From Gemmatimonadales bacterium (GTDB lineage: Bacteria; Gemmatimonadota; Gemmatimonadetes; Gemmatimonadales; GWC2-71-9): DNA of 64,000 nt. A model generated the notes under the pieces. It ran no database searches. It had not been told where the DNA came from and saw only the letters and a program-made list of their open reading frames with translations. This document shows, in pieces, positions 19,633-22,284 of this stretch; within the stretch, counting starts at the first letter, position 1, and the number at the start of each line of letters is the position of its first letter. Where the stretch lies: contig JAICWE010000007.1 in the NCBI GenBank assembly GCA_025934955.1, positions 1 to 64,000 of the forward strand, given 5' to 3'. The position numbers and the translations under genes are program-made.

Positions 19633-19660
19633 GTCAACCCTCGCGTCTCGAGCGGCATCC
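19633..19660 (+). promoter_or_regulatory. ECF-type promoter motif, copy 1 (before sigma gene)
   Basis: The pattern is GTCAACCC (19633-19640), 11 nt, GCGGCATCC (19652-19660). Measured as AAC-N17-CATCC, this matches the spacing of ECF sigma promoters (AAC-type -35 and short -10). The same two blocks at identical spacing recur at 21765-21792. The -10-like block ends seven nt before the proposed GTG start, so the sigma mRNA may be leaderless, or translation may begin further downstream. Confidence 0.65.
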
Positions 19661-19667
19661 CAGCGAC

Positions 19668-20270
19668 GTGCCCGCGATCTCTCCCGCCGTCTTCGGCCTG
19701 CCGCTTCCCGCGCTCCGTCGCGATGCCGACCCCGCGTCGCCGCCGTCCGCCGACCGTCTGCCGGCATTGGTGAAGCGGGCCCAGGCCGGCGACGACGCCG
19801 CATTCGGCCTGCTCTACCGCGAATGCCGCGGCCGGATCTACGCGCTCTGTCTCCGACTCGAGGCCGACGCGGCGCGGGCCGACGAGTTGATGCAGGACGT
19901 CTTCGTCCGGGCGTGGGAACGGCTTGGCAGCTTCCGGGGCGAGAGCCGCTTTTCGACGTGGCTGCACCGGCTGGCGGTGAACGTGGTGCTCCAGGATCGG
20001 CGTGCGAGCTGGCGGCGGGAGCGCCGGGTGCTCGCCACGCCGGACGATCAGATCGAACGCCTGCCTGCCGTCGCCCGGCCGACTCCGCCATCCGGTGACC
20101 TCGACGATGCGCTGCCGCGGCTTCCACCCGGCGCGCGCGCCGTCTTCGTCCTGCACGACATCGAGGGCTATCCGCACGAGGAGATCGCCGCGATGCTCGG
20201 CGTCGCCGTGGGCACCAGCAAGACCCAGCTCTTCCGTGCGCGGCGCATGCTGCGGGAGGCACTCGGATGA
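19668..20270 (+). CDS. ECF sigma factor (RpoE-like)
   Basis: This 200-residue sigma-70-family protein has region 2 at about residues 30-98 (AFGLLYRECRGRIYALCLRL, the DELMQDVFVRAWE promoter-opening helix, FSTWLHRLAVNVVL) and region 4 at about 140-195 (LPPGARAVFVLHDIEGYPHEEIAAMLGVAVGTSKTQLFRARRMLRE). Its four-nt overlap with the next gene, a zinc-finger anti-sigma factor, is the standard ECF arrangement. The GTG at 19668 gives a rather long N-terminus of about 30 residues before region 2; a start further in, for example GTG at 19770, cannot be excluded. An exact copy of a promoter-like motif before this gene and before 21820 suggests it drives its own operon. Confidence 0.93.
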   Translation: MPAISPAVFGLPLPALRRDADPASPPSADRLPALVKRAQAGDDAAFGLLYRECRGRIYALCLRLEADAARADELMQDVFVRAWERLGSFRGESRFSTWLHRLAVNVVLQDRRASWRRERRVLATPDDQIERLPAVARPTPPSGDLDDALPRLPPGARAVFVLHDIEGYPHEEIAAMLGVAVGTSKTQLFRARRMLREALG

Positions 20271-20893
20271 CGGGCTGCGAGCGGGCGCGCGAGCGGGTGG
20301 ATGCGTACGTCGCCGGGCGGCTCACGGCCGACGAGGCGGCGGAGCTCGAGACCCACCTCACGATGTGCGATGCGTGCCGGCGGGACGAGCAGGCGGCGCG
20401 TGCCCTTGCGCCGATGATCGCGCGGCTGCCGCGCGAGATCGAGCCGCCGACCGATCCATGGCCCGCCATCCGTGGCCGCCTGCACCCACGGCCGCGCCGC
20501 GCTCGCCCGCTGCTGCTCGCCGCCGCGATCGCCGCGTCGCTCCTGCTGGCGGCCCTGGGCGCGCTGCGACTCACCCGGCGTGCCGCGCGCCCGCTCGCCG
20601 TCGCGCCGCCGCCCGCGCCGTCATTCGTGGCGATCTCCGCCGCCGGCGCGCGGACCTACGCCGCGGCGGACGCGGAGGCGAGTGCGGATCTTCAGCGACG
20701 GGGTGCCGAGTCGCGCTCGCCCGCCGCCTCGTCGCTCGCGCGTCATCTGCGCGCGGTGGATCAGGCCATCGCCGAGTCGCGCGCCGCGCTGGCGGCGGAC
20801 CCGCACAACCCCGATCTCGCCGCGCTGCTTCGCGGGGCGTACCGCCAGAAGCTCGACCTGCTGCTCGCGGCCTCGCTGCCGCCGCGGAGCTGA
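20267..20893 (+). CDS. Anti-sigma factor with zinc-binding ASD and one membrane helix
   Basis: This 208-residue protein has an N-terminal zinc anti-sigma domain with the HxxxCxxC signature (His30, Cys34, Cys37) and a further Cys4. A membrane helix follows at about 78-100, then a periplasmic region rich in helices (SLARHLRAVDQAIAESRAALAADP). It should hold the ECF sigma factor at the membrane until an envelope or redox signal releases it. Its ATG overlaps the sigma-factor stop (ATGA). The periplasmic part ends in a hydrophobic LDLLLAASL helix. The signal could act through the periplasmic part or through zinc-thiol oxidation; the sequence does not say which. Confidence 0.88.
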   Translation: MTGCERARERVDAYVAGRLTADEAAELETHLTMCDACRRDEQAARALAPMIARLPREIEPPTDPWPAIRGRLHPRPRRARPLLLAAAIAASLLLAALGALRLTRRAARPLAVAPPPAPSFVAISAAGARTYAAADAEASADLQRRGAESRSPAASSLARHLRAVDQAIAESRAALAADPHNPDLAALLRGAYRQKLDLLLAASLPPRS

Positions 20894-20895
20894 GC

Positions 20896-21762
20896 GTGCG
20901 CGCCGTCGCCTCACTCATTGTCCTGCTGCTGCCGGCGCACGCGGTGCTGGCGCAGCTGCCGGCCGCGCGGGGACTCGCCGTCGATCGCGACGTCGCCGTG
21001 CGGGTCTACAATCCGTCCGGGGACACGCGCATCACCGGCTGGGATCACGACAGCGTCGCGGCGGTCGCGGCGCCGGCCACCGGTGCCCTCGTGTTCGTCG
21101 GCAGCCGCGGTGCGGTCAAGGTCGGGCTCGACTCCATCGCCGCGGCGGCGGGCGGTACGCCGCTCGAGGTGCGGGTGCCGGCGGGTGCCCGGGTGTGGGT
21201 GCAGGGCGGCAGCGGCACGGTGGAGGCGACCGGCATCACGGGCGAGCTCGACCTGCACACCGTCGAAGGCCACATCCGCGTCGAAGGCGCGCCGGCGCGC
21301 GTCACGGCGGAGGCGGTGGACGGCGACATCGACGTCGAGGGGCGCGCCGCGACCACCGATGTGCGGACCGCCGGCGGCACGATCACGCTCCGCTACCTGC
21401 GCGGCGAATGCACCGCGACTTCGGTGAGCGGGCCCATTCGCCTCGGCGGCGCCGATCTGCTGCGGGGGCGGCTGGAGACCATCTCGGGCGAGATCTCGTT
21501 CAAGGGACGAATCCAGCGCGGTGGCGTGGTGGAGGCGCAGTCGCACAGCGGACTGATCGAACTGCGCCTCCCGCCCGACGTCAGCGCCGACTTCGATCTC
21601 ACGGCGTATCAGTCGTCGGTGGAGAGCGAGCTGGGACCGGCGAGCGCGGCGGCCCGGCATCGCCACTTCTCGCTCAACGGCGGCAGTGCGCTCATCGTCG
21701 CGCGCACCTTCAAGGGCGCGGTGCGCGTGGTGAAGCAGCCGCTGCCCGAGACGCTTCCCTAG
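20896..21762 (+). CDS. Exported DUF4097-type beta-helix adhesin-like protein
   Basis: This 288-residue protein has a signal peptide (residues 1-19, ending HAVLAQ). It is followed by repeating short beta strands of the DUF4097/DUF4098 type, with units such as VEVRVPAGARVWVQGGSG, ITGELDLHTVEGHIRVEG and AVDGDIDVEG that stack into a right-handed parallel beta fold. It has no catalytic motif. It starts two nt after the anti-sigma stop and completes the sigma/anti-sigma operon. In other bacteria DUF4097 proteins are often placed next to ECF sigma/anti-sigma pairs. It may be the envelope-facing partner or sensor of that pair; this is inferred from position. Confidence 0.8.
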   Translation: MRAVASLIVLLLPAHAVLAQLPAARGLAVDRDVAVRVYNPSGDTRITGWDHDSVAAVAAPATGALVFVGSRGAVKVGLDSIAAAAGGTPLEVRVPAGARVWVQGGSGTVEATGITGELDLHTVEGHIRVEGAPARVTAEAVDGDIDVEGRAATTDVRTAGGTITLRYLRGECTATSVSGPIRLGGADLLRGRLETISGEISFKGRIQRGGVVEAQSHSGLIELRLPPDVSADFDLTAYQSSVESELGPASAAARHRHFSLNGGSALIVARTFKGAVRVVKQPLPETLP

Positions 21763-21764
21763 CC

Positions 21765-21792
21765 GTCAACCCGCCGCGCGCGGGCGGCATCC
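21765..21792 (+). promoter_or_regulatory. ECF-type promoter motif, copy 2
   Basis: GTCAACCC (21765-21772), 11 nt, GCGGCATCC (21784-21792): identical blocks and spacing to 19633-19660, with a different spacer sequence. The ATG of the next gene is 27 nt downstream of the -10-like block, and CGGAGG lies between, so a normal short leader would result. It starts two nt after the stop of the preceding gene. Confidence 0.7.
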
Positions 21793-21819
21793 GAGAAGTA
21801 CACCTTTTCGGAGGCTCCC

Positions 21820-22284
21820 ATGCCGCTCGCACTGCTCCGCGCCGTTGCGTTCGCCGCCACCCTCGCCGCCGGACCGCCCTGGATCTCGATCGAGCTCCCC
21901 GCCAACCCGATGGACCCGTCCGCCCACGGCGCCTTCCTGCTGGTACACACCTATCACCATCGCGCCGTCACCGGTGACATGCCGCACGGCCGCGCCGTCG
22001 GCGTGGTGGACGGGGAGCGCCGCACCGTCGAGCTGTCGTTCGAGCGGACCGGGACGCCCGGCGTGCTCGCGCTGCGCAAGAGCTGGCCATCGGAGGGAAG
22101 CTGGGTGCTGGTGATCAGCGTCGGCGAGGAGCACGGCAGCGCCACGGCGCTGGTGCGGCTGGCCGCCGACGGCAGCGTGCGCGGAGTGGACGTGCCGACG
22201 GAGCAGCGGAACGGCTACCTGCTGCCGAAGCAGGTGAGCGACGCGGACGTGGACGCGGCGCTCCGGACGCTCGCCGCGCGCTGA
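21820..22284 (+). CDS. Small exported protein, putative ECF target
   Basis: This 154-residue protein of unknown function has a short signal peptide (residues 1-17, ending in LAAGP). The mature part is mostly beta, with one His-rich spot (TYHHRAV) and a C-terminal helix (SDADVDAALRTLAAR). CGGAGG lies five nt before the ATG. It follows the ECF operon after 57 nt. The gap holds the same bipartite promoter motif that precedes the sigma gene, so I infer that it is transcribed by that sigma factor. The charge and strand pattern would suit a ligand-binding or protective envelope protein, but no domain is recognised. Confidence 0.7.
   Translation: MPLALLRAVAFAATLAAGPPWISIELPANPMDPSAHGAFLLVHTYHHRAVTGDMPHGRAVGVVDGERRTVELSFERTGTPGVLALRKSWPSEGSWVLVISVGEEHGSATALVRLAADGSVRGVDVPTEQRNGYLLPKQVSDADVDAALRTLAAR

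Follow-up and report, generated by a model that had tools for sequence, protein, structure and literature searches.

A bipartite element predicted to serve as the shared promoter of an ECF sigma factor operon and one secreted protein in Gemmatimonadales

Two exact copies of a bipartite motif flank the operon of a stress-type (ECF) sigma factor in a Gemmatimonadales genome, and both are very probably promoters read by the sigma factor encoded between them, which would drive its own operon together with a single secreted protein. The motif, GTCAACCC-N11-GCGGCATCC, occupies 19633-19660 and 21765-21792 on the forward strand of the stretch of DNA analysed (64,000 nucleotides, hereafter the window). 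Autoregulation and a direct target had been proposed in an earlier note on this DNA, and the proposal is supported by the evolutionary footprint described here, in which many genera carry the element at both of these positions. That this sigma factor recognizes both sites, and where transcription begins at each, we infer from sequence.

The duplication stands as first reported: the two blocks are identical, the gap measures 11 nt in each copy, and the spacer sequences are not alike. When the window was scanned with the 17 fixed positions, allowing three mismatches or fewer, three matches were returned against 0.5 expected, only two of them exact. A genome-wide scan, suggested earlier as a check, found these two copies in the block as the only exact matches in the home draft genome (3,053,534 bases, 88% complete), the next best match carrying two mismatches. 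Matrix scores were obtained for the fetched stretches and the window; searches of the home genome, an incomplete draft, used patterns and individual stretches. The predicted autoregulatory promoter (19633-19660; -35 AAC at 19636-19638, -10 GGCATC at 19654-19659, conserved A at 19662) is the best PWM site of the window at 25.0 bits, and its position is kept in relatives. The predicted target promoter (21765-21792; AAC at 21768-21770, GGCATC at 21786-21791, conserved A at 21794) is second best at 23.2 bits and is conserved before homologues, compared with 13.6 bits for the third site of the window. A near-copy on the reverse strand (41901 to 41876; GTCAACCC-N11-GGCATCC), lying upstream of a D-Ala-D-Ala dipeptidase-like gene with a greA-like gene on its other side, was not accepted; its spacer is shorter by 2 nt.

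The operon enclosed by the two copies begins with the sigma factor gene (19668-20270, 200 aa), whose GTG codon at 19668 is the first in-frame start past copy 1, lying 7 nt beyond the end of that copy and 8 nt past CATC; the start position is conserved. The product matches Pfam Sigma70_r2 and Sigma70_r4_2, and TIGR02937 (sigma70-ECF) above its cut-off, and thus has the ECF architecture of regions 2 and 4 without region 3 or 1.1 in about 200 residues; among its best 25 NCBIfam matches, no equivalog model reached its cut-off. Overlapping it is the gene for a class I-type anti-sigma factor (20267-20893). Zinc-type members of this class carry Hx3Cx2C in an N-terminal anti-sigma domain (PMC7406223), and the protein has both a zf-HC2 match in Pfam and the corresponding sequence HLTMCDAC; this motif, a hydrophobic segment and a C-terminal part following it were read from the sequence. 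The third gene (20896-21762) encodes a DUF4097 (toastrack) protein with an apparent signal sequence (PF13349, 39 bits against a cut-off of 22.9). Copy 2 then falls inside the 57-nt gap preceding a 154-aa gene (21820-22284), here called the target gene, whose product has an apparent signal sequence, the signature GPPWISIE and a beta-sandwich model. The ATG at 21820 lies 27 nt past the end of copy 2, and a Shine-Dalgarno sequence, GGAGG (21810-21814), stands between them, as expected of a leadered mRNA; comparable leaders are present in relatives.

Conservation was assessed on 40 homologous loci (213 kb) gathered by protein homology to the target gene, the motif playing no part in their choice. 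The gene order of ECF factor, anti-sigma factor, DUF4097 protein and target is kept in most relatives. On the forward strand, AAC-N16-GCATC occurs 49 times in these loci, and 44 of the 49 copies fall within the 18 kb directly before an ECF or target gene; spacers of N15, N17, N18 and N19 gave 2, 5, 2 and 4 copies, respectively, in the whole 213 kb. The dyad was absent from anti-sigma starts (0/31) and from DUF4097 starts (0/32). In an unbiased count of every 3-mer/5-mer dyad with spacers of 10-20 in upstream regions, AAC-N16-GCATC ranked joint first, present in 14 of 18 genera before the ECF gene and in 12 of 23 before the target, and the dyad tied with it was its own shifted twin, AAC-N15-GGCAT. 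Because the element recurs at both places in many related genera, it almost certainly marks a real and very local switch.

The 44 sites yielded a refined consensus, [CT][AC]AAC[CG]-N15-GCATC-N2-A, with AAC-N17-CATC spacing. The third base after CATC is A in 43 of the 44, even though this A was unspecified in the search pattern. All 17 positions originally taken as fixed are indeed identical in the two window copies; the functional motif is nevertheless smaller, as the flanking G, CC and GC vary across relatives. ECF promoters have AAC in the -35 element and typically CGT in the -10, and autoregulation is standard, though not universal, among the factors that read them (PMC3426412). The ECF-like geometry attributed to AAC-N17-CATCC therefore holds in part: both sites have an ECF-type AAC, many genera share the dyad and the spacing is conserved to CATC, yet the -10 has CAT at both sites in place of the typical, though not universal, CGT. 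CATC itself is contained in the top-ranking dyad of that unbiased count.

The element is not uniformly retained. A strict match is missing at one site in about half of the loci (15/34 ECF regions and 19/40 target regions), and many of the loci without one belong to the second family of the order, where the element appears to have diverged or been lost. Beyond the 40 loci, the element was found in L156, L173 and L177, with none in, for example, L157, L168 and L178. At four loci (L092, L093, L097, L099) the fourth gene stands in another gene order, the ECF gene being reversed or located on its other side, and a search for strict copies of the motif found none there.

The two sites differ in their distance to the start codon. 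Of the 28 sigma loci with a site, 22 have an in-frame ATG or GTG at 7-16 nt past CATC, compared with 0-9 loci for the other 10-nt stretches tested, and none of these 22 genes has a Shine-Dalgarno-like sequence before that codon. From this distance, the sigma transcript would begin at, or a few bases from, its start codon, and a leaderless sigma mRNA is predicted. The sigma start is harder to place in genus g18, where some species have the nearby GTG out of frame and an ATG beyond it. At the target gene, 28-71 nt separate CATC from the start and a Shine-Dalgarno-like sequence is present. Five g18 loci (L062, L065, L068, L069, L071) also have a short hairpin in the predicted 5' leader of the target mRNA, GGCAACC...GGTTGCC, that includes the Shine-Dalgarno sequence; a clear hairpin of this kind was seen in that one genus only.

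The motif, expected to define a regulon, does not lead to one larger than the block: in the home genome and in 11 relatives, other convincing sites were few or absent. In those relatives the degenerate motif gave 2-10 exact matches per genome, and in three genomes (G111, G131, G133) the two block sites are the only pattern matches genome-wide. A wider regulon in the home genome was considered and rejected: degenerate searches returned 58 and 75 loose matches, and those that were matrix-scored fell below both block sites. Loose versions of the motif also match apparent coding sequence, in which AAC...GGC-ATC reads as codons. Plausible promoter geometry was observed at just one of 14 extra sites inspected in relatives (L214, positions 40-68, in G163), where the first base of the motif is 62 nt upstream of an ATG; the gene, whose product has an apparent signal sequence, is a possible third target. 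The regulon thus seems to be the block itself, and a local switch is the simplest reading.

The home genome contains 12 ECF-like matches, this sigma factor included, and two of the others are 48-55% identical to it. The closest paralogue (contig C85, 113500-121500) is followed by an anti-sigma gene, two DUF4097-like genes and a tandem set of three related proteins, each about 200 aa long and with an apparent signal sequence; the paralogous operon on contig C25 (10500-17000) is followed by HEAT-repeat-like proteins. Such paralogues raise the question of whether the motifs might be ECF promoters read mainly by one or more of these other factors, the block being one output of a shared ECF network. 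In favour of this, of the sites found in the home genome the third best (20.3 bits) lies in the divergent region beside the C25 operon, pointing away from it, so that cross-recognition by a paralogue is possible, and upstream of the C85 paralogue there is a similar element whose spacer is longer by one base. Against it, the motif follows this block from genus to genus, and the upstream regions of the closest paralogues lack it at the same spacing: C25 has GAAACC...CGTGTC instead, and a possible reading frame overlaps the C85 element. The three genomes in which the two block sites stand alone point the same way, and we consider control mainly by paralogues unlikely.

Less likely still is that both blocks are binding sites for a transcription factor, activator or repressor, and contain no core promoter. 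A long exact bipartite duplicate can certainly be an operator, and the promoter role of the motifs is a prediction. However, the AAC-N17-CATC spacing is fixed, placement is directional, the AAC is of ECF type, the consensus forms no palindrome and no direct repeat, and the sigma/anti-sigma pair is the sole regulator recognized in the conserved block; moreover, the sigma start codons, at 7-16 nt downstream, come too soon to allow another core promoter in between. We give next to no weight to chance or to a duplicated gene end. The motif is short, the window is 72% GC and loose versions do turn up in apparent coding sequence, but the spacers of the two copies differ, as had been argued from the outset, both placements are conserved across genera together with positions that were never selected for, which excludes chance, and the unbiased dyad count speaks decisively against it. 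Promoters of the intervening ECF sigma factor remain the favoured reading of both motifs.

The target protein belongs to a lineage-specific family. Homologues were found in 68 of 201 sampled Gemmatimonadales genomes (about a third), and in a phylum-wide sample 43 of the 44 genomes with a homologue lay inside the order and one more inside the class. The home genome has a single copy of the gene, in this block. Neither Pfam nor NCBIfam gave a family match for the protein, and comparison of its sequence with solved structures gave no convincing one. An AlphaFold model built with 27 sequences (pLDDT 88.4) consists mostly of beta strands; a fold search with it returned nothing at E below 0.001. Its weak matches include CrdA (probability 0.98, E 0.12) and PcoC, both periplasmic copper proteins, a resemblance in the model that offers only a lead. 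The 27 aligned sequences share an invariant HH pair, which would fit metal binding but is no proof of it.

On the favoured reading, the switch would operate as follows. An envelope signal would release the sigma factor from its anti-sigma factor, and the freed sigma factor would act at promoter 1 to raise expression of its own operon (sigma factor, anti-sigma factor and DUF4097 protein), amplifying the response, which the extra anti-sigma factor would then reset. Promoter 2 would be switched on together with promoter 1, providing a separate, leadered mRNA for the secreted beta-sandwich protein on top of any read-through. The target protein is the likely effector, and the DUF4097 protein may serve as an extracytoplasmic accessory.

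Taken a step further, the block may represent a hitherto undescribed ECF group of Gemmatimonadales, with a CAT-type -10, a leaderless sigma mRNA and a reach limited essentially to itself and to one secreted effector specific to the lineage; we regard this candidate group as an evenly balanced proposition. Were it so, sigma synthesis would escape Shine-Dalgarno-dependent control and that of the target would not. Among the papers searched, we found none on an ECF promoter in Gemmatimonadota or on an ECF operon with DUF4097. The analysis supplies a profile of the promoter sequence, predicts a start site and points to one candidate effector, and so renders the function of an uncharacterized secreted family directly testable; the leaderless start and unusual -10 could in addition provide an orthogonal sigma/promoter pair.

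Compared with known systems, the block most resembles autoregulated ECF/class I anti-sigma operons, with which it shares a two-domain sigma factor, a zinc-finger anti-sigma gene after the sigma gene, a -35 AAC and an element before the sigma gene itself. It departs from them in having GGCATC-N2-A instead of a CGT -10, a predicted leaderless sigma mRNA, and DUF4097 and an undescribed secreted family within the block. In the ECF41 group a single, strongly conserved promoter motif precedes an adjacent target and in many cases the sigma gene too, the neighbour being the only detectable target (PMC3426412). The block has the same arrangement, a conserved motif before the neighbouring target and the sigma gene that would make a local switch. 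Unlike ECF41 factors, which carry a fused C-terminal regulatory extension, this protein ends right after region 4 (the match stops at residue 195 of 200) and is paired with a separate anti-sigma factor; the -35 also differs, being TGTCACA in ECF41, GTCAACCC here and [CT][AC]AAC[CG] in relatives. Closest to home, the paralogous operons at C85:115878 and C25:13115 share sigma factors at 48-55% identity and, in C85, DUF4097-like genes, whereas they have no target-family gene and their upstream elements differ in spacing or -10. Particular to this group are CAT for CGT in the -10, a predicted leaderless sigma start and an undescribed effector family.
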